From a virus: DNA of 37,640 nt. The DNA lies in IMG/VR virus record IMGVR_UViG_3300042554_001745, positions 1 to 37,640 of that record; one strand, 5' to 3'. The notes under the pieces are model-generated. The model saw only the letters and a list, made by a program, of their open reading frames with translations, searched no databases and had not been told where the DNA came from. This document shows, one piece after another, positions 1 through 35,011 of the stretch. Each line of letters opens with the position of its first letter. Within the stretch, counting starts at the first letter, position 1. Both the position numbers and the translations under genes were made by a program.

Positions 1-171
1 AAATCCTTGAGGTCCGGGTCCACCACTAGGTCCAGTAAATCCTTGAGGTCCGGGTCCACCACTAGGTCCAGTAAATCCTTGAGGTCCGGGTCCACCACTA
101 GGTCCAGTAAATCCTTGAGGTCCGGGTCCACCACTAGGTCCAGTAAATCCTTGAGGTCCGGGTTCTCCGGT
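1..171 (-). repeat. 36-bp perfect tandem repeat in the collagen region
   Basis: Four identical 36-bp units (1-36, 37-72, 73-108, 109-144) are followed by a partial, diverging fifth. Each unit encodes GPSGGPGPQGFT, four Gly-X-Y triplets, so gain or loss of units keeps the frame. The array touches the left edge and may be longer. Identical synonymous codons in every unit point to recent expansion. Confidence 0.97.
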
Positions 172-3100
172 AAATCCTTGAGGACCTATACCTGCTAATC
201 CAGTAAATCCTTGAAATCCTTGGTTGCCTTGCGGGCCAGCCACAGAGCTTGGATTACCTGTAGGTCCTTGGTTGCCTTGCGAGCCCTGAAAACCTTGAGG
301 ACCGGGAGCTCCCGGAGGGCTTATTATACTAGGTCCTTGTCTTCCTTGAAAACCCTGTGTACCTACTGTGCCTTGTAGTCCTGTTGGACCTTGGTTTCCT
401 TGAGGTCCCGGTCCGCCGGGTTCTCCTGTAGGGCCTTGAAGTCCTACTCCTGACAAACCTGTAGGGCCTTGATTACCTTGTGTACCTGCTGTTCCTTGAA
501 AACCTGTTGGTCCTTGATTACCTTGTGGTCCTTGCCTTCCTTGAAAACCCTGTGTACCTACTGTGCCTTGTAGTCCTGTTGGACCTTGGTTTCCTTGAGG
601 TCCTATATCCCCTTTCTGACCTTTGTCGCCTGTTAAACCAGGTTGGCCTTTAAATCCTATACTTCCTTTAGTCCCTTTATCGCCTTCACTTCCCTTATCT
701 CCTTTATATCCTTTATAGCCAATTTCCCCTTTACTTCCTTTAAAATCTCCTTTAATTCCTTTATCTCCTTTAACTCCTTTATCTCCCTTACTCCCCGTAG
801 GTCCAGGAGGACCTATTTTAGAACTTGGTATAGGAGATGGACTAGGAGCAAAAATTCCTATATTTTCAGGAGATGACATATTATGTACTAACACATCTTC
901 TACAAAAAAATTTTCATTTTTCTCTACGCTTAAATTATATACAGTACTAGATGTTGCGTATGAATAAATATTAGATATCTTTTCATAAGATAGTGTTTTG
1001 TAATTAAAGAGTTCATCGTTTACAGATAAATCTTTAGCTTTTTTCCAATATTTATCATACCATCCTTTAACGTAAAATGGATGTTCTTCAGTACATTGTA
1101 TATTATTATTTATAACATATAAATAATTTGATTTTCCTACATGTTTATATATTATAGTATCTTCTTGTAGTGTTTTATTATCTATGTTATAAGACATGAT
1201 TGATTGACCTACTAAAGCTTCCTCTATTGTTATGTAAACATTATTCAATGTTAATATTTTAGTAGACGGAATAAAACAAGTTGGGCCTACTGATCCTGAA
1301 AATCCTTTGTCTCCTTTGTCTCCTATTTCTCCTTTATCTCCTACACTGCCCTTCTGACCTATAGTTCCTTGTAGACCCGTTATGCCTTGATTACCCTGAG
1401 GTCCTTGATTACCCTGAAATCCGGTAAAACCTTGTAGTCCTTGATTACCCTGATTACCTTGCGGTCCTTGATTGCCTTGGAAACCTTGTGTACCTACTAT
1501 TCCTTGAAAACCTTGTGTACCTACTGTACCTTGTATGCCCTGTATTCCCTGATTACCTTGCGGTCCTTGGTTGCCCTGCGGCCCTTCTACAGAACTTGGA
1601 TTACCGGTAAGACCTTGGTTTCCTTGTAGTCCTTGATTGCCTTGTGTGCCAATTGTTCCTTGAATACCTGTCGGACCTTGATTTCCTTGTGAGCCTTGAT
1701 TACCCTGCGCTCCGGTAGTACCCTGTAGTCCAGTAGGGCCTTGATTACCTTGCGGTCCTTGATTGCCTTGGAAACCTTGAGTTCCTACTGTTCCTTGAAT
1801 ACCTGTCGGACCTTGATTTCCCTGTAAGCCTATAGTTCCTTGTAAACCTGTTGGTCCTTGATTGCCTTGTGTGCCAATTATTCCTTGAATACCTGTCGGA
1901 CCTTGATTTCCCTGTGAGCCTATAGTTCCTTGTAAACCTATTGGTCCTTGATTGCCTTGAGAGCCTTTGAAGTTTCCTTTTTCTCCTTTCGGCCCTTTTT
2001 CACCACCGCCAGCTATAGAAACAAATCCTTTAAAACATTCTCCAAAAGTTATTTCTATAGTATTTTCGTCTATGGCAGTATAATTTTCGGGGATAACGGA
2101 GTTCCCGTCATAGGAGTATATAGTAAATACAGGGTATTGTATTCCTGTACCGTGGTTAATTGTAATAACATTACAACTATTTAAAGAACCAGTAAATACG
2201 GTATCTCCTAATTCACCTTTAGACCCACTTATTCCCTTAAGCCCTTCCTCCCCCTTCTGTCCTTTGCTTCCTTTAAAATTTCCTTTTTCTCCTTTGTTAC
2301 CCTTTCCGGAGGAGCTAGCTATTAGAGCTTGAAATGCGGGGCTACTATTGAACGTGTTTATTAAAAGCTGTTCGTCAATAGTAACATCAACATTAACTTT
2401 AACTCCATAGATGGTTGTAGAAAAATTAGCAGAAACTCCGTTAGCATTTAAATATTCTATTTCAAAAATATATTCAGTATCTATTTTTGCTATTGGTAAA
2501 TTATCCAATGGAATATCAATACAAAATTCATTAGGAGTTCCTCCGTCTGATGCACTTGGAAATATATCAATGTCAGAAACATTCCATTGCCCTGCATTTA
2601 TAATAAAATTAGGCTTTATATTATCTTCAGATGTGGCTTTAAATGTAAAAGTCTTCTTTATTTCAGACTTATTATTACCGCCTATTAAAGATCCTAAGAA
2701 AGTACCAAAGGAGTTCTTTTCTGATGTGCCAGATGGGGATGATGCATTTACCTTATTTATAGATAATGGAGATTTTTCTACATCCGGTCCTTGAATGTAT
2801 ATGTCAAGTTGTGGAGTTTTTCCATTAGCGTCTTTTTCGGAAAATGCAGATATTTGTACAGTATATTCAGTGTTAGGAACTGATTTGGATAAGAAAGAAT
2901 CTTTTACTGTTATATTTACTACTTCATTTTCTTGCTTATTGTGCTGTACGTCTAAGGCGTTTATTATATTTCCGCTGTTGGCAGATGTAGTTACTCCCCC
3001 AGCACCTAAGTTTTGATAAGATGAATTTTGCTTTCTAAACTTATTAATATCAAAATAGCTAGATATGTCAGAGCTGTCCTTTATATTTCCTACTTTCTTA

Positions 3101-4338
3101 TTCTCTATACCCCCATTAGCAGAAAAATCATAAGAAGTAGGATCTGTTAATTTACTTGTTTTGGGTATTTTAAATTCTCCTAAACTAACTGGACTTCCTA
3201 CCCCTCCGGCGGCTTTTGCCGAAACTTTTACTCTATCAACATCTCCGGAAACAGGTTTAGCATTTTTAACACATATTTTAGCGTATCCTGTTTTCTTTTG
3301 TCCATCGCTTGTATTTGGACTTTTAAAATAGTCTATACATATATTTGATGAATCGAATTTTGTAATATAAATTTCAGATGGTTCTCTTTTTTTATTTACA
3401 TAGGACTCTCTATAGAAAAACTGTTTATCTACCTTTATTTGAGTACTACTAATTACCTCTACGATGGTTGCTGTGTAAGAAGGAACTGTTGGGGAATAAC
3501 CAGAAGGTAAATCTCCGGGTAAATACTTGGAAATGTTAGGAGTTAAAGAGATAGTTCCTTTCTCCATTTCTTTTTTAAATGGAGCGCCGGTATTAGCTAC
3601 TATTGTGCTAAGGTTATTTGCGTCAGTTGTTATAGAAAAGTTACCGGAATTAGCTAAACTTCCCGATGTATTTACGGTAGGTGAGGATTCAATAGGTACT
3701 CCTTCAAATAATGTAGGTATATTAGAGGAATAGTTGGAAGAATATTGAGAAGGGGGTGCGGAGGATACATAAGATAAACTAACTGCATGACAACTTCCTG
3801 TAGCTCTGCTTCCGGAAAAGTTTTGAAAAGCTCTTGTTTCAGGAGTTAAATCTACTTTGGGAGGTATAGTATATTTTATATCTCCTACTGTTTTTTTCTT
3901 AATATTACACAACAATTTACCTACCCATATAATATTAGGTGACGATAAATTTGTTACTTTTCTATTTCTTAGTACATCGAAATTAGCTGTACCTGCTATA
4001 TAAATTTCACAATTTCCTATGGGTACCTTATCTCCTATGGTAACAGTTACAATAGCGGATCCATTAGAATTTGCAACATTTTTTATTTCGTGTGGAATTA
4101 AATTGCCCTCCGAATCATAGACTTCAACAAAAACTTGAGTTCCTTTAACTAAGTTTTGCGTTGGGTTGATTCCTATTTCATTAGACCCTTTTAAAAATTC
4201 CGCAGGTAGAGATAAGCCAAAATAATTAGAACTTAAAGCATCACCATCAAAAAGAGTAAATTCATTTATATAGCTCTTTATCCCAGAGCTAGTTAATTTT
4301 TTATTATATTCAGATGATGATGTTACTCCAGAAGCCAT
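1..4338 (-). CDS. Giant collagen-like tail fibre with an internal Hint domain (C-terminus beyond the left edge)
   Basis: The frame is open from ATG 4338 to the left edge, at least 1446 codons without a stop. Residues 1-~675 (starting MASGVTSSSEYNKKL) are non-repetitive and probably anchor the fibre to the virion. Gly-X-Y repeats begin near residue 678. One beta-rich module (about 711-775, with INHGTGIQYPVFTIY) follows, then a long Gln/Gly-rich collagen stretch (about 779-1018, GNQGPTGIQG type). A Hint domain fills 1021-1153, a short Ser/Pro linker follows, and collagen repeats continue from about 1176 to the edge. Collagen-like phage fibres form trimeric rods, so this is most likely a host-contacting fibre. 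The start lies 4 bases after the SbcDC stop, and no Shine-Dalgarno is visible. Its target and the distal tip are unknown because the 3' end is missing. Confidence 0.88.
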   Translation of the reverse strand, partial: MASGVTSSSEYNKKLTSSGIKSYINEFTLFDGDALSSNYFGLSLPAEFLKGSNEIGINPTQNLVKGTQVFVEVYDSEGNLIPHEIKNVANSNGSAIVTVTIGDKVPIGNCEIYIAGTANFDVLRNRKVTNLSSPNIIWVGKLLCNIKKKTVGDIKYTIPPKVDLTPETRAFQNFSGSRATGSCHAVSLSYVSSAPPSQYSSNYSSNIPTLFEGVPIESSPTVNTSGSLANSGNFSITTDANNLSTIVANTGAPFKKEMEKGTISLTPNISKYLPGDLPSGYSPTVPSYTATIVEVISSTQIKVDKQFFYRESYVNKKREPSEIYITKFDSSNICIDYFKSPNTSDGQKKTGYAKICVKNAKPVSGDVDRVKVSAKAAGGVGSPVSLGEFKIPKTSKLTDPTSYDFSANGGIENKKVGNIKDSSDISSYFDINKFRKQNSSYQNLGAGGVTTSANSGNIINALDVQHNKQENEVVNITVKDSFLSKSVPNTEYTVQISAFSEKDANGKTPQLDIYIQGPDVEKSPLSINKVNASSPSGTSEKNSFGTFLGSLIGGNNKSEIKKTFTFKATSEDNIKPNFIINAGQWNVSDIDIFPSASDGGTPNEFCIDIPLDNLPIAKIDTEYIFEIEYLNANGVSANFSTTIYGVKVNVDVTIDEQLLINTFNSSPAFQALIASSSGKGNKGEKGNFKGSKGQKGEEGLKGISGSKGELGDTVFTGSLNSCNVITINHGTGIQYPVFTIYSYDGNSVIPENYTAIDENTIEITFGECFKGFVSIAGGGEKGPKGEKGNFKGSQGNQGPIGLQGTIGSQGNQGPTGIQGIIGTQGNQGPTGLQGTIGLQGNQGPTGIQGTVGTQGFQGNQGPQGNQGPTGLQGTTGAQGNQGSQGNQGPTGIQGTIGTQGNQGLQGNQGLTGNPSSVEGPQGNQGPQGNQGIQGIQGTVGTQGFQGIVGTQGFQGNQGPQGNQGNQGLQGFTGFQGNQGPQGNQGITGLQGTIGQKGSVGDKGEIGDKGDKGFSGSVGPTCFIPSTKILTLNNVYITIEEALVGQSIMSYNIDNKTLQEDTIIYKHVGKSNYLYVINNNIQCTEEHPFYVKGWYDKYWKKAKDLSVNDELFNYKTLSYEKISNIYSYATSSTVYNLSVEKNENFFVEDVLVHNMSSPENIGIFAPSPSPIPSSKIGPPGPTGSKGDKGVKGDKGIKGDFKGSKGEIGYKGYKGDKGSEGDKGTKGSIGFKGQPGLTGDKGQKGDIGPQGNQGPTGLQGTVGTQGFQGRQGPQGNQGPTGFQGTAGTQGNQGPTGLSGVGLQGPTGEPGGPGPQGNQGPTGLQGTVGTQGFQGRQGPSIISPPGAPGPQGFQGSQGNQGPTGNPSSVAGPQGNQGFQGFTGLAGIGPQGFTGEPGPQGFTGPSGGPGPQGFTGPSGGPGPQGFTGPSGGPGPQGFTGPSGGPGPQGF
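341..603 (-). repeat. 68-bp identical duplication inside the fibre gene
   Basis: Positions 341-408 and 536-603 are identical over 68 bases, with further similarity on the left side. They lie 195 bp (65 codons) apart, so the duplication is in frame. It encodes a block of collagen triplets including QGTVGTQGFQG. Such copies can change fibre length by recombination. Confidence 0.9.
880..1278 (-). other. Hint (hedgehog/intein) self-processing domain within the fibre
   Basis: Residues 1021-1153 of the fibre show the intein splicing blocks in order without a homing endonuclease. Block A is CFIPSTKILTLNN followed by ITIEEALVGQSIMSYN. Block B is CTEEHPFYVKGW followed by AKDLSVNDELF. Block F is VYNLSVEKNENFFVEDVLV, and the domain ends in His-Asn. 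Cys1, the block-B T..H and the terminal His-Asn needed for acyl shift and Asn cyclisation are all present. The residue after Asn is Met (then Ser-Ser), not Cys, Ser or Thr. Family knowledge says this resembles A-type bacterial intein-like domains and favours N- and/or C-terminal cleavage over canonical splicing. That outcome is inferred. Confidence 0.92.
1517..1569. repeat. Left copy of a 53-bp inverted repeat shared by the two edge fibres
   Basis: These 53 bases are identical to the reverse complement of 37559-37611. Both copies encode the same collagen segment (about GPQGNQGIQGIQGTVGT) in oppositely transcribed fibre genes about 36 kb apart. Confidence 0.9.
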
Positions 4339-4341
4339 TTA

Positions 4342-7300
4342 TTATGATATTAATTGGGAATGTCCGTTATCCTTTACAATAAATAGTTCCTTTGCTACAT
4401 AATCTTTAACTACATCTAAATGTGATATGCATAATATAAATCTAAAATATGAAGTAAGCTCTTCCAAGAATAATCCTACGTTAGCAATATTATCAGAATC
4501 TAATACACCAAATCCCTCATCTATGAAAAAGAAGTCAGGTTTTGGGAGTACAGTAACATGATTTAATGCTGCTCTTATGGCTAAGGATGATATAAATCTT
4601 TCCATGCCAGATGCTAAAGATAGAGGCCATTTAGGTCCATTTACATAAGATATAAATACTTCCAATGTTTTATCAGATAACTCAAATTGAATATTGAATG
4701 CTGCTACATTTTTTAGAGCATCATTGACAACATTTTCTAATACAGGTAAATAATTTTTAATAATGAAAAGAGGAATTCCATCTCTTCTAGTAGCCTTCTC
4801 AAAAACAAAATAATTATTATAAGTTAAAGTGTCATCCTTAAACTTTTTAATTTTTATTTTGATGTCTTTGATTTTTGATTCATTGCTAGTTATTGTAGAT
4901 TTATGCCCTCCGATAGTATAAGCTAATTGATATACAGCATCATCTATTAATTTTTTCTCATCTAATAATTTGGCTATTTCTCTATCTATCTCAGCGTTTT
5001 TCTGCTCTATGTCCTTGTAGGATTCTTGCTCTTTTAGCTTTTCGGAGTAATCTAAAATCAAGTTTTTTGAGATTTGTATTTTCTCCTTAATAATATTTGC
5101 TTGGCTTTCTATATTGTCTAAATTAGATTTAAGCCTATCTGTTTCATTTTTCTTATCGTTGTACTTTTTATATAGAGAGTCTGCTGTTTCTAAATTCTTT
5201 ACAATTTCTCCTAATTCGTTTTTACTTTGTTTGAGTTTATCTAGTTTGTTTAGTAACTCCGGATATTCTTTTTTAGCTTTTTCTCCATCTAATGCGTACT
5301 TGTTGTTTTTTACGCAATACACACAGTTAGGATCATGCTCGTAACCTTGTAGATGGTCTATTAACTTACCACTAGATTTTATTTCAGATTCAGCTACTGC
5401 AATGTCCCTGTCAAAATCAGATAATGTTTTTCTTATCGTAACTAAATCAGAAGATACGTCAGCTACTTCTCCCATAGATTCTAATTCGGATAAATGCGTT
5501 TTAAGGGCATTTCTAGCCTCTACAAACGACTTTCTCTTATCTTCTAAGGATGAACTAAGGGTTGCCTCATTTCTGCTCTCCTCGTCTATTTTTGTGGCGT
5601 AGTTTACAGATTGCTTAGGGTATGGAGTAAGTTCCTTTCTTTTGTTTTCTATTTGTATGGACAGGACATCAGAACTCTTTTTATTTAACTCTAAGCTAGT
5701 TTCAACTTGTGTTAGCTTAGACTTTATATCTATTATGTTATTTTCATACTCCGTTACAGATTCGTTGTATTTTTGTTTTTGGTGATTCTCAATTTCATAT
5801 TTTAATTGTTTGAGATGCTCTTTAGATGTATCATTTAATTTCTCAAAGATGTCTATATCAAAATACTTGTACAATAAATCCTTTTTGTCTTTTTGAGTCT
5901 TGTCAATAAAGTCAGATTTATTATGTTGATCATACATTGTTATAAGCATGAAATTCTCATAACTTCCTAGATACTTTCTAATGCTGTCATTTGTTTCATA
6001 TCTTTGCTCGCCGTTTAAAGAAGTTCCATCCTCTTTATAGAAATTAACGATAACTTTTACTTTCCCATCTTTTCCTTTCTTGCCATTACGCTCTATAAAA
6101 TAAGACTCTCCTGCAACGGATAATTCTAATTTACAGGAAAAGAAATCAGAAGATGTATTCATTACTTCGGCTCCACTACTTGTTTTACTACATTTGTCAA
6201 AAATACAGTAAGTCATAGCGTCTAATAAAGTAGATTTTCCAGAAGCATTTGGTGAGAATAATCCAACTAGTCCTCCTAACTCTCCTAAATTAAATACATT
6301 GCCCTCTCCGTAGGAAAACATATTAGAAAATTCAAATCGTATAGGCTTCCATGTTACACCTATAAACTCGGAAGGCTCATCTAATTCTAAGGAAGCTGTT
6401 TTATGTATATCTAAGAATTTATCCGCTTGGTATTCCTGTTTTAACTCGTTTTGAACATATCTCTCTAGCATTGAGTGTCTCCATTCGAAGTCTCTTATTA
6501 TGTTCTCTTTGTCTAGTGATACTTCTCCTTTACCATTGTCTATAATAAATTTAGTTACTTTTGGTTTTTTTATACGGAGAACATTATATTTTTTTTCTAA
6601 GGCTAAACAAAAGGAGTCTATAAATTCTTGAGTGCAATTTTCGGCGGTGATAGCTACATTAAGATTATATGGTAAATCTCCAGGTATTTTTTCAGCTACT
6701 TTATCATTTTTCAATTTAAATGTATAATATCCATTTGAAGATGCTATCTTAATGAACTCACTTGTATTCTTATTTAAATCCCATTCTATAATTCCATGTG
6801 TTAAATCTTCTCCAAAGTTCTGTTGTATTAAACTAGATGGATAAGCTGCTGTCTTTTCTAAATTGAGATATTGATGTTTATGAATGTCTCCCAATAATAT
6901 GTAATCATAATCTGCATGTTCTAATACATCTAAATAATTTCCTTCTAATAGATATCCGTATGCTGTTGCCGAGTTCTTTACCGGTCCATGATACATTAAT
7001 ATCTTGGTTTCTGCATCAAAAGATTTTGCGGGGATTACATTTTCAATTTTATCTTTGACATGTAATAAACTAAATCCTATTTGTTCATATTGATATACAT
7101 TTGTTTCATTCAAGAAATGTAATGTAGGTAAATTTAAAGTATTTATGATAGGAGTTAATGCATCTAATCTTGTTTTATTATTTAGATTTAAGTCATGATT
7201 TCCTAATATTACTATGGTAGGAAGCATGTTACATAATGTAGATAATAGATTAGATACTACTGAGAATAATTCTGGAGACATGTTTGTTTTTGAATGTACT

Positions 7301-7473
7301 ATATCCCCGCCCAAAAATATAATAGAATTAGGCGTCATTCTCTCCTCAATGATTTTATACAATTTTTCAAACACTTCTATGTATTCCTCATGCCTTTGAT
7401 AATTGTAAACATGAATATCTGAAATGTGGAAAATCTTATCGACTTTTCTTCCTGTGTCCTTTATTAGAATCAT
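4342..7473 (-). CDS. sbcDC: Fused Mre11/SbcD nuclease - Rad50/SbcC ATPase (gp47-gp46 fusion)
   Basis: This 1043-aa protein joins two subunits that are separate in T4 (gp47, gp46) and bacteria (SbcD, SbcC). Residues 1-~250 are a metallophosphoesterase with SDIH (18-21), GGDIVH (55-60), GNHD (91-94), YHG (161-163) and GDIHKH (195-200). Residues 375-1043 are an SMC-like ATPase with Walker A SPNASGKST (407-415), long coiled coils, a zinc-hook CVYC (717-720), signature LASGMERF (953-960), Walker B FFFIDEGFGVLD (981-992) and H-loop ISH (1016-1018). The complex resects DNA ends for recombination-dependent replication and repair. The start overlaps the primase stop by 4 bp (ATGA), which suggests translational coupling. 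No frameshift or stop separates the halves, so the fusion appears genuine. Confidence 0.93.
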   Translation of the reverse strand: MILIKDTGRKVDKIFHISDIHVYNYQRHEEYIEVFEKLYKIIEERMTPNSIIFLGGDIVHSKTNMSPELFSVVSNLLSTLCNMLPTIVILGNHDLNLNNKTRLDALTPIINTLNLPTLHFLNETNVYQYEQIGFSLLHVKDKIENVIPAKSFDAETKILMYHGPVKNSATAYGYLLEGNYLDVLEHADYDYILLGDIHKHQYLNLEKTAAYPSSLIQQNFGEDLTHGIIEWDLNKNTSEFIKIASSNGYYTFKLKNDKVAEKIPGDLPYNLNVAITAENCTQEFIDSFCLALEKKYNVLRIKKPKVTKFIIDNGKGEVSLDKENIIRDFEWRHSMLERYVQNELKQEYQADKFLDIHKTASLELDEPSEFIGVTWKPIRFEFSNMFSYGEGNVFNLGELGGLVGLFSPNASGKSTLLDAMTYCIFDKCSKTSSGAEVMNTSSDFFSCKLELSVAGESYFIERNGKKGKDGKVKVIVNFYKEDGTSLNGEQRYETNDSIRKYLGSYENFMLITMYDQHNKSDFIDKTQKDKKDLLYKYFDIDIFEKLNDTSKEHLKQLKYEIENHQKQKYNESVTEYENNIIDIKSKLTQVETSLELNKKSSDVLSIQIENKRKELTPYPKQSVNYATKIDEESRNEATLSSSLEDKRKSFVEARNALKTHLSELESMGEVADVSSDLVTIRKTLSDFDRDIAVAESEIKSSGKLIDHLQGYEHDPNCVYCVKNNKYALDGEKAKKEYPELLNKLDKLKQSKNELGEIVKNLETADSLYKKYNDKKNETDRLKSNLDNIESQANIIKEKIQISKNLILDYSEKLKEQESYKDIEQKNAEIDREIAKLLDEKKLIDDAVYQLAYTIGGHKSTITSNESKIKDIKIKIKKFKDDTLTYNNYFVFEKATRRDGIPLFIIKNYLPVLENVVNDALKNVAAFNIQFELSDKTLEVFISYVNGPKWPLSLASGMERFISSLAIRAALNHVTVLPKPDFFFIDEGFGVLDSDNIANVGLFLEELTSYFRFILCISHLDVVKDYVAKELFIVKDNGHSQLIS

Positions 7474-8811: not shown

Positions 8812-10467
8812 TTAATAATCAAATTTTACAATAACATTTAAATCTACATCATCTCTTTTCTTTATAGCTTGTCCCATTTTACCTACTGCAATTAGTTCGT
8901 TAGATTTGTTATACAAGCCGATGGTAGTTATATAAGGAGATAAAGAACCTGTGAAATCATCTAAATACTCTGCACTCTTAACAGTTTTAGTAGAGGAAGG
9001 GTTCAATGTGAGATTAAAATCACCCCTCTTAATTCTACATAACATCTCAAACTCATACAAAGTTAAGCTATTTTTATAATATAACAACCAATTATTAGAT
9101 AAAATTTCATGATATTTTTTATCTACGCTTGTAATTACTAAGTTACCTGTTCTATAAAATACATTTCCTACTCTACTTGTCTGGTAACATGAGATAGAAG
9201 ATGTATTATAAAGACTTGTTACATTTTGAGATGTTGCCGCTTTATTATAAAATCTTAATTCATCAATAAGTCCTGTATATCCATTTCTTCCATCAAAAGA
9301 AGATGCTCCTATCATGATATCACTTACATTGACAGTTTCATCTTTGACATCCGCTCTCGATGAATTTAATGCTCCATCAACATATAATCTAACATTTGAA
9401 CCTGTCTTAACTAAACATACATGATGAAAATTATTATCTAAAATGGAATTAGAAGATGTTAATTGTAATGTTGAAAACCCATCTGACCTACTAAAAGATA
9501 GTTTTCCTGGTTGTGGATGGGTGTGATTATGTACCGAAAACTCATAAGGGTAGTAATCCACTGGGTAGTATTTAAAGGAAGAAGATGAAAAAACATCGGT
9601 TACTACTAGATTCCCTTTATTTACTCTTTTTAATCTTCCGAATTCTTCTCTGTATAATATGGATTTTTTGTCAAGTATTGTATTTTTATTACTAGTCAAT
9701 ACGCTTTGAGATACCGGTGCCTTTAACCAAAAACTTATGGTGAAATTGTCTGCTGATTCAAAACTGACGGTATCAAAGTTTTTAGTGTGAATATAACCAT
9801 CCCCATAAAATTCCGCAGCTAATCCTGTTCTAGTTCCGTTAATAGGAATACCACTTGAATAGGCTACTTGGTATGACTTTGATTTTTCTTGTGGTTCAAT
9901 TACTTCGCTTTCGTATCTTATAAACAAAGTCTTTTTTCCTCCTCTGCCGTATCTATAAGCTTTATGCGCATCCTGGAATCCCCAATATCCACATAAATTA
10001 TCTGTATTTAGGAAAGAACTTGTATTTATATTCTTGTCATATAAGTTATTGTGTCCATCGTCTACTAAAAGTACATTGTTGTTTAGTCCTTTTAAATATA
10101 ATGTGGTTTCTTTAATCTTGTCTCCGTAATTTAAAGAAGGAATAGAAAGTAAACTAGCTGTTAAAAATAAATTCTTAGTAGTTCTATTTCTGTCCCATCC
10201 CTCTAAAGAATTAGCCCATGCAAAACCTCTCTTATAATACAAGTGGTTTAGTGAATTATAAACAATATACTTATAAGACCCATCTGTATTTTTAGGATAA
10301 GTGATATCTTTTGATGAACTGATATGAATAGGGCCTTTATAGTAAAGACCTTGCTGTACTTGATAACCTTGTTTTGAATAACTTCCGGTGAGGATATAAT
10401 ACTCCTTGTTTACTTCAAACGGGGTAATATTAAAATCCTCACCTCTTATTGGCGCGAATGTACTCAT
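8812..10467 (-). CDS. Virion protein with LamG/concanavalin-like domain
   Basis: This 551-aa protein has a LamG-type jelly-roll domain at about 210-430, recognised from GLAAEFYGDGYIHT, FTISFWLKAP, NNFHHVCLVKTG, VRLYVDGALNS and GYTGLIDELRFYN. The domain often binds carbohydrate. The C-terminus (YITTIGLYNKSNELIAVGK, then VIVKFDY) matches the ends of the next two upstream-encoded proteins, so it is probably a shared assembly or docking segment. It starts 1 bp after the 1064-aa gene and is followed directly by the resolvase. It is likely a tail or baseplate-attached structural protein that touches the cell surface; the exact position in the virion is unknown. Confidence 0.72.
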   Translation of the reverse strand: MSTFAPIRGEDFNITPFEVNKEYYILTGSYSKQGYQVQQGLYYKGPIHISSSKDITYPKNTDGSYKYIVYNSLNHLYYKRGFAWANSLEGWDRNRTTKNLFLTASLLSIPSLNYGDKIKETTLYLKGLNNNVLLVDDGHNNLYDKNINTSSFLNTDNLCGYWGFQDAHKAYRYGRGGKKTLFIRYESEVIEPQEKSKSYQVAYSSGIPINGTRTGLAAEFYGDGYIHTKNFDTVSFESADNFTISFWLKAPVSQSVLTSNKNTILDKKSILYREEFGRLKRVNKGNLVVTDVFSSSSFKYYPVDYYPYEFSVHNHTHPQPGKLSFSRSDGFSTLQLTSSNSILDNNFHHVCLVKTGSNVRLYVDGALNSSRADVKDETVNVSDIMIGASSFDGRNGYTGLIDELRFYNKAATSQNVTSLYNTSSISCYQTSRVGNVFYRTGNLVITSVDKKYHEILSNNWLLYYKNSLTLYEFEMLCRIKRGDFNLTLNPSSTKTVKSAEYLDDFTGSLSPYITTIGLYNKSNELIAVGKMGQAIKKRDDVDLNVIVKFDY

Positions 10468-33874: not shown

Positions 33875-35011
33875 ATGCTAATTTACAGGCCTACTATTAT
33901 TTCTGGTTCGGGATATTACTCCGGGTCTTTTGATGGAGACGGGTCTAGGTTATATAACATACCATCATCTTCCTACGCTATAACTGCCTCCTATGCTTTA
34001 AATGGAGGAACCGGAGGTGGTGAAAAAGGTGATAAAGGAGAAATGGGAGATTCTGTTTTTACCTCCTCTTTACAAGGAGTATTAGTAACAGTTAATCACA
34101 ATTTAGATTTAGAATATCCTGTTTACAATATTTATGATAATTTAGGAAAAGAGGTAATACCTAAGGAATTTACCATAATTAATCCAAATTCCGTACAAGT
34201 AAATTTCGGCATACCATTTACCGGCTCTATAAGTATTTCCGCTGGTCAACAAGGTTTTAAAGGACAAAAAGGGAGTAAAGGAGAAGTTGGTGTCAAGGGA
34301 AATAAAGGAGAGTTAGGAGAAGCTGTTTATAGTTCATCTATTCAAGGCACTGTTATTTCTGTGGCTCATAATTTAGATATTCAATATCCTGTTTTTACTA
34401 TTTATGATAATTTAGGAGATAATATAATACCTAAATCTTTTTCTGTTATAAATGATAATACCGTTGAAGTTGATTTCGGTATTGGATTTACTGGCTCTAT
34501 AAGCATTGCAAGCGGTATAAAAGGGCAAAAAGGAGAACCTTACAATGGATCTGTAATATATGAGAGCGGTAGTAAAATAGGTATAGGCATTCCAAATCCT
34601 ACATTTCAATTACAATTATCTACAAATAGTGCAGGTAAACCAACTGGAGGATCTTGGTCGGATTCTTCGGATATAAGGTTAAAGACAGATATAAAAGACA
34701 TAGATAATCCACTACATATATTAAAAAAAATAAGAGGAGTTACTTTTAGATGGAAAGATGGTTTACGAGATGATTGTAACTCCGGAGGTTTTATAGCAGA
34801 TGAATTAGAGAATGTATTCCCCTCTTGGGTCACAATACAAGAGTCTTCTGAGAAAGAAAAACTGTATATAGAAGACAATAAAGTAAAAACTATCTCGCTA
34901 CCCTTTTATTTTGATGCTATTATAGTTGAATCAATAAAAAAACAGCAAGAAGAAATAGAAATGCTAAAAACTAGTATTTTAGAATTAGAACTACTTATTA
35001 AAAATACATAA
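33875..35011 (+). CDS. Tail fibre with collagen segments and C-terminal peptidase S74 chaperone
   Basis: This 378-aa protein has an N-terminal attachment motif (SGSGYYSGSFDGDGSRL, 10-26). A collagen segment (about 49-59) and a beta module (about 60-124, VNHNLDLEYPVYNIYDNLG) follow, then a second collagen segment and a close copy of the beta module (about 150-214). The C-terminal domain (about 258-378) is an intramolecular chaperone of the endosialidase/S74 type. Its catalytic pair is visible as SDIRLK (Ser265, Lys270), followed by LKKIRGVTFRWKDG and a terminal coiled coil. Such chaperones fold trimeric fibres and then cut themselves off just before the serine, here removing about 114 residues. 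It is likely a short receptor-binding fibre. Confidence 0.88.
   Translation: MLIYRPTIISGSGYYSGSFDGDGSRLYNIPSSSYAITASYALNGGTGGGEKGDKGEMGDSVFTSSLQGVLVTVNHNLDLEYPVYNIYDNLGKEVIPKEFTIINPNSVQVNFGIPFTGSISISAGQQGFKGQKGSKGEVGVKGNKGELGEAVYSSSIQGTVISVAHNLDIQYPVFTIYDNLGDNIIPKSFSVINDNTVEVDFGIGFTGSISIASGIKGQKGEPYNGSVIYESGSKIGIGIPNPTFQLQLSTNSAGKPTGGSWSDSSDIRLKTDIKDIDNPLHILKKIRGVTFRWKDGLRDDCNSGGFIADELENVFPSWVTIQESSEKEKLYIEDNKVKTISLPFYFDAIIVESIKKQQEEIEMLKTSILELELLIKNT

Follow-up and report, generated by a model that had tools for sequence, protein, structure and literature searches.

Bacterial intein-like (BIL) domains were reportedly described in 2003, and we know of no clear biological role that has since been assigned to them. 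A second self-processing element that concerns us here is the S74 peptidase, which cleaves off a C-terminal chaperone. The available text of four publications, all reviews apart from one research paper (PMC4031507, PMC7765530, PMC5874633, PMC7664689), describes A-type BILs as keeping a terminal His-Asn, lacking a nucleophile at position +1 and occupying variable protein regions; they mostly cleave, and splicing is possible when a freed amine attacks the thioester. The accessible part of PMC7765530 differs on the latter point, in that A-type BILs are unable to ligate their flanks. In the portions available of two further reports, phage inteins are located in terminase, ribonucleotide reductase or helicase (PMC3556154, PMC7344957), and inteins are reported absent from phage CBB in the accessible text of PMC5259590.

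The window analysed here is a stretch of 37,640 nucleotides of viral DNA, positions 1 to 37,640 of IMG/VR record IMGVR_UViG_3300042554_001745. At one edge it encodes a collagen-like fibre that contains a Hint domain, with the following features:

1..4338, minus strand: whole fibre ORF, 1446 aa, its 3' end open where it runs off the contig (from the ORF and profiles)
1279..2004, minus strand: proximal collagen-like rod, residues 779-1020, with charged Gly-X-Y close to the Hint domain (from the Gly-X-Y pattern)
880..1278, minus strand: Hint domain, 133 aa, fibre residues 1021-1153 (from translation, profiles and predicted fold)
1276..1278, minus strand: Cys1 codon, putative nucleophile of an N-S acyl shift (from translation and alignment)
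880..885, minus strand: His132-Asn133 codons of block G, putative site of Asn cyclisation (from translation and alignment)
877..879, minus strand: +1 residue Met1154, without a side-chain nucleophile (Met in all three distinct alleles)
820..879, minus strand: 20-aa non-collagen linker MSSPENIGIFAPSPSPIPSS (from translation)
1..813, minus strand: distal collagen-like rod, residues 1176 on, running off the contig (from the Gly-X-Y pattern; relatives go on into Peptidase_S74)

The Hint domain starts with Cys1, ends in Val-His-Asn and is flanked on both sides by Gly-X-Y stretches, with Thr at -1 (GSVGPT/C) and Met at +1 (HN/MSSPEN). An earlier, sequence-only reading of the window had placed a 133-aa Hint with Cys1 and His-Asn at exactly these coordinates, followed by Met and Ser-Ser, and had reported no endonuclease; each of these statements holds, the last because 133 aa leaves no space for one. 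The profile search that it had proposed brought the excised domain (151 aa with flanks) over the cut-offs of the intein models in both Pfam (Intein_splicing, 42.5 bits against 35.8) and NCBIfam (intein_Nterm, 25.0 against 24.5 and thus barely over; intein_Cterm, 23.2 against 15.6), and just over that of Pfam PT-HINT (28.8 against 27.7). With the whole 1446-aa ORF as query, Intein_splicing (33.6) and PT-HINT (22.1) both fall below cut-off. The Hint match is not due to chance. Where the same reading saw all Hint blocks, the predicted fold and blocks A, B and G are indeed present, but block F is degenerate, with Asn at F:4 and Glu or Gln at the usual His position. In inteins F:4 is most commonly Asp and the block F His is usual but less conserved, according to the available text of PMC4031507. 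Judged by its predicted fold and by blocks A, B, F and G (F being degenerate at two assisting positions), the fibre domain belongs to the Hint superfamily.

An AlphaFold2 model of the Hint domain, built from seven aligned sequences (mean pLDDT 85.7, pTM 0.81), has BIL folds as its best matches, which answers the structure prediction also proposed earlier. A sequence search of the PDB puts BIL domains on top (6tmm and 6y75, 1.6e-6; 2lwy, 5.5e-5), and Foldseek with the model lists BIL structures first (6y75, 4.6e-11; 2lwy, 9.0e-9). In VIA-align, BUBL1 BIL2 (6y75; Z 21.8, 1.6 A over 139 residues) and 6tmm give the best rows, followed by the Clostridium thermocellum BIL 2lwy (Z 20.0, 1.5 A over 131 residues) and, below the BILs, by inteins from Z 19.3 down and by hedgehog 1at0 (Z 18.1). 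This order of predicted folds favours a BIL over an intein; as the intein scores sit close behind, fold alone cannot tell the two apart. The model has 111 matches in BFVD at E <= 0.001; among those listed there are terminases, ribonucleotide reductases, "Fibronectin type III" and "Collagen triple helix repeat", going by names only.

Like the A-type BILs 2lwy and 6y75, the fibre Hint combines this fold with Cys1, a His-Asn end, no Cys/Ser/Thr at +1 and a seat in a variable stretch of a protein that is itself not conserved, so that it fits every sequence feature of the published A-type BILs. Unlike them, it is housed in a collagen-like fibre of a phage, with a C-terminal S74 chaperone, and its activity is putative. 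Compared with class 1 inteins and mini-inteins, Met stands at +1 instead of Cys/Ser/Thr, the domain sits in a variable Gly-X-Y rod where inteins occupy conserved sites of conserved proteins, and block F carries Asn and Glu/Gln instead of the usual Asp and His. A sterol-recognition region, as in hedgehog Hog domains, is missing from the fibre, in which the 20-aa linker and then collagen follow the Hint. The PT-HINT domains of polymorphic toxins share with it the marginal profile match given above; in complete relatives the Hint is followed by collagen and S74, with no toxin domain. The S74 chaperone of phage fibres is C-terminal, as it also is in these complete relatives, whereas the Hint sits mid-rod.

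The full layout of the fibre is seen in a complete relative of 1661 aa (L004), in which an N-terminal part of about 740 residues is followed by collagen, Hint, linker, collagen and a C-terminal Peptidase_S74 (44.5 bits against a cut-off of 22). The equivalent end of the window's fibre lies beyond the window edge and was therefore invisible to the sequence-only reading. The N-terminal part has no matches in the phage collection, and its predicted model is useless (pLDDT 34). Identification as a tail fibre is a prediction from the collagen, the S74 domain, PHROG labels driven by the collagen, and structural neighbours. At the contig edge, positions 1-163 of the window form a perfect 36-base tandem array of 4.5 copies. 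Several related contigs also end inside the rod, so assemblies seem to break at this spot.

The charge of the rods was measured in 30-residue bins in six Hint fibres (L002, L003, L004, L006, L007 and L009), four of which have one common Hint allele. In all of them except L007, charged residues make up 0.27-0.33 of the last complete bin ahead of the Hint and 0.30-0.37 of each of the two bins that follow it; their other rod bins lie at 0-0.17, apart from 0.20 at the rod start. In L007 the charge peaks after the Hint only (0.33, 0.30) and is otherwise 0-0.23. Rod bins in ten reads without Hint are at most 0.20 charged, the N-terminal part of L031 aside. Triple helices are often capped by charged Gly-X-Y, and for this reason the Hint may lie where two rods end; a hinge at this point would fit the pattern equally well as a cut.

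The fibre Hint occurs in eight IMG/VR contigs (L002-L009; 79-100% identity). Since six of them repeat the protein sequence of the window, with 0 or 3 DNA differences that are all synonymous, there are only three distinct alleles (window type, L007 and L009), and the evidence on conservation comes from these three in one phage group. Cys1, Thr63, His66, His132, Asn133 and the +1 Met are invariant in all three; the TxxH motif, Cys1 and His-Asn are kept while 22% of residues differ between the window allele and L009. Cys1, His66, His132 and Asn133 also recur in the four terminase inteins aligned, and Cys1 and His-Asn in all eight Hints of alignment A1; beyond the group the block B His is not universal, being missing in the Hint of the uncultured phage LR756508. 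The three allele pairs give dN/dS values of 0.067, 0.126 and 0.123 at dS 0.84-1.11 (Nei-Gojobori, rough at such dS). By these sequence comparisons the domain is under strong purifying selection, and such low values at this dS indicate that it is not a decaying relic.

A search with the S74 end yielded 29 loci, of which 28 were read; L060, with the end of S74 only, was left out. The Hint was seen in 8 of the 28 and not in the other 20, most of which are too short upstream to tell. The linker string IFAPSPSP is likewise absent from all 20 Hint-less reads, of which many are short. In L034, a single ORF that lies after two frame breaks spans the last portion of the N-terminal part, the rod and S74, with neither Hint nor linker. 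No matching junction is identifiable in its rod; the rod sequence varies widely among relatives. L048 and L049 can be read for about 590 and about 665 residues ahead of S74, again with no Hint. The Hint is therefore an accessory module, since close relatives lack it, and the existence of the near-complete Hint-less fibre L034 indicates that processing is not essential to the fibre. No partner gene that co-varies with the Hint was found among the three downstream genes compared, which are the same with or without it.

Terminase distances bear on the history of the module. Terminase dS is 0.38-0.42 for L034 and L048 against L004 and 0.81-0.83 for L007 against all others, and the L004-L007 pair has much the same dS in terminase (0.82) and Hint (0.84). 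With equal distances L007 would be the outgroup, and L034 and L048 would have lost or swapped the Hint; the tree, however, is unrooted. A single gain is also possible, as the unrooted tree separates the three Hint carriers from L034, L045 and L048. The terminases of L004 and L009 are near-identical (dS 0.038), but their Hints, compared as window type against L009, differ at dS 1.09, so fibre alleles are exchanged between close phages.

All seven remaining loci from the first search of IMG/VR (L010-L016) are inteins of terminases and have Thr at +1. The closest non-fibre relative found in IMG/VR is among them, the terminase mini-intein L010 (30% identity), which has the VEKNENFF block in common with the fibre Hint. 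The four terminase large-subunit inteins aligned (L010, L012, L013 and L016; 28-31% identity) resemble the fibre Hint in Cys1, VEKNENFF, the block F Glu and His-Asn, and differ from it in the +1 Thr, Asp at F:4 and, in three of the four, a long insert between the splicing blocks. The same phage's terminase was considered as a Hint donor and rejected: all three complete terminases in fibre-Hint records are 526 aa long, with no space for an intein. In the four fibre-Hint records scanned, Intein_splicing matches the fibre only. A scan of viral contigs with a closer Hint alignment returned the same phages only (8 loci), and a scan of genome contigs returned no matches; such scans need short exact stretches and may let distant relatives escape, which also applies to the scan with the LR756508 Hint, which found no relative in IMG/VR.

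Against the phage collection, tblastn found 9 records at an E limit of 0.01. LR756508, a 484-kb phage, carries its Hint at the extreme C-terminus of a protein that is fibre-like by eye (L020, 3209-4507), with two residues after the Asn; this Hint is below Pfam cut-offs, and the phage's terminase, 43% identical to its L004 counterpart, lies about 13 kb away from it. Used as query at E 0.1, the LR756508 Hint returned 31 records, namely itself, 28 from Erwinia and 2 from Dickeya phages (RefSeq copies counted). The six Erwinia/Dickeya jumbo phage tail proteins that were read (Y3, AD1, Alexandra, Yoloswag, pEa_SNUABM_39 and pEa_SNUABM_36) all combine Gly-X-Y with a Hint that has Cys1 and His-Asn, like the window's fibre. 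Their Hint differs in being C-terminal (HN/TDIVA, with a 10-aa tail), with Thr at +1 and Asp at F:4. In three of the six submitted to Pfam, Collagen is above cut-off in each, Hint profiles are below it and S74 has no match. In an Erwinia jumbo phage locus (L085, 1213-3342), an intein-like stretch with Asn at F:4 and Cys at +1 interrupts a protein at SPP/C, which we take to resemble the catalytic motif of cytosine methyltransferases. Loci with Asp at F:4 have Thr or Ser at +1 in 11 of 11 cases (by eye), and 7 of 8 non-Asp loci lack a +1 nucleophile (the three fibre alleles, L018, L019, L020 and L021), with L085 as the exception; L086, a stretch that does not end in His-Asn, was left out of the tally, which is no proof because many loci are near copies.

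Taken with the analogy to published BILs, the sequence and the modelled fold make it rather probable that the Hint is a functional, self-processing, A-type-BIL-like accessory module of a collagen-like phage fibre, which would mostly cut the chain, at one edge or at both, and in some cases religate it. That the fibre is processed by its Hint at all is likely. The direct basis for this is sequence, predicted fold, conservation and the presence or absence of the module, from which we infer all chemistry, timing and purpose. The C-terminal S74 chaperone would trimerise the chains, and the rods would fold. Cys1 of each chain would then form a thioester with Thr1020, and His132 would assist Asn133 in cyclising, breaking the bond to Met1154; the candidate sites, which we infer from sequence, are thus Thr1020/Cys1021 and Asn1153/Met1154. 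Since the Met side chain is unable to accept the acyl group, the chain would mostly end up cut, at one edge or at both, into a proximal piece (about 1020 residues) and a distal piece (about 510, S74 included), while in a minority the free amine of Met1154 may attack the thioester and rejoin the two. The rod would in this way acquire a programmed break or joint. Several points count against this reading. Inteins come close behind the BILs in the fold comparison, the conservation is that of three alleles from one phage group, and outside this group LR756508 has lost the block B His from its Hint or never had it. Block F lacks both of its usual assisting residues (the terminase inteins have the same Glu), and a mid-rod cut would shed the distal half unless it is held; among the three downstream genes compared, no element that would hold it was found. 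A separate distal rod could in principle also arise from an internal start at the +1 ATG, an idea that has no support here; no clear Shine-Dalgarno sequence precedes this ATG by eye, nor any of nine gene starts looked at.

A mini-intein-like domain that mainly splices would instead remove the Hint and seal the rod as GPT-MSSPEN, leaving one continuous mature chain. The kinship with L010 and its +1 Thr agrees with this, as do certain BILs that splice without a side-chain nucleophile in the published text available; nevertheless, the usual transesterification is impossible for a +1 Met, F:4 is Asn, and in the same partly available sources BILs without the +1 nucleophile cleave for the most part, which agrees with the sequence-only reading that such domains cleave or splice poorly. 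We therefore regard predominant splicing as unlikely. If the domain were a splicing element in decay, a dying mini-intein left by an invasion of the fibre gene, its missing +1 nucleophile and block F residues would be accounted for, and so would its presence in some close relatives and absence from others. Against such a relic stand the dN/dS of 0.07-0.13 at a dS close to 1, the preservation of the core residues, and a seat in a Gly-X-Y rod and not at a conserved protein site; we consider it very improbable.

Selection across the whole domain, and not on catalytic residues alone, would suit an inert knob, three Hint folds forming a globular hinge between two collagen rods with no chemistry, and the Hint-less L034 shows that processing is dispensable for the fibre. 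A knob could, however, lose Cys1, TxxH and His-Asn, which are invariant despite the 22% divergence between window and L009 (suggestive, with three alleles), and Cys1 and His-Asn persist throughout alignment A1, so that this explanation seems distinctly improbable. Finally, an outside nucleophile might attack the Thr1020 thioester in hedgehog-like acyl transfer, coupling the proximal rod to another molecule; the sequence-only reading had named a host surface amine as one such nucleophile, and no finding here bears on that idea. Hedgehog 1at0 is indeed among the fold rows, and the LR756508 protein, ending two residues after the Asn, would leave almost no C-terminal product. Yet the fibre has no region resembling sterol recognition, collagen resumes after the 20-aa linker, and the pure form of this reaction does not need a His-Asn end; we give it very little credence. 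Self-processing of the BIL type thus remains the reading that we prefer.

Elsewhere in the window, a second, smaller fibre (33875-35011, plus strand) has Peptidase_S74 above cut-off and a collagen match just below it. The 1043-aa ORF at 4342-7473 (minus strand) contains Metallophos (residues 13-199) and AAA/SMC parts (383-587 and 772-1019), and on this sequence evidence is a single-chain SbcD-SbcC fusion of the T4 gp47-gp46 type. At 8812-10467 (minus strand) a lectin-like Laminin_G_3 domain exceeds its cut-off; a weak match there to a clostridial receptor-binding profile, below cut-off, probably reflects a shared lectin fold only. Among isolates, the terminase is matched best by those of Microcystis phage Mel-JY01 (52%) and Flavobacterium phage immuto (50%). 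From this, and from the lack of a clear Shine-Dalgarno at the nine gene starts viewed by eye, our guess is that the host belongs to the Bacteroidota.

The sequence-only reading considered the system undescribed. This needs qualification, because phage proteins that unite collagen with a Hint have a precedent in those of the jumbo phages and among the BFVD names: the Y3 protein is annotated as "putative phage tail protein, contains intein domain", and five related jumbo phages have its counterpart. What stands is that, among the titles and abstract starts of the matches listed (a search mostly outside subscription journals), none reports what a Hint or intein does in the fibre or another virion protein of a phage. 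Tentatively, a BIL may have been turned here into a device of fibre maturation, a possible though doubtful scheme in which a one-chain rod would be folded under S74, cut at the Hint joint and freed of its chaperone by S74, giving a two-piece rod with a distal part that could come off, be exchanged or be coupled by way of the thioester; the Erwinia/Dickeya jumbo phage proteins would be a parallel case. A phage fibre is a simple setting for a BIL-like domain: any products would be visible on virions, and close relatives that have the Hint can be set beside those that lack it. An active domain would bring a mid-rod self-processing step into fibre maturation, besides the one that S74 performs at the C-terminus, and, being small, it would be usable for building cleavable or ligatable collagen rods.
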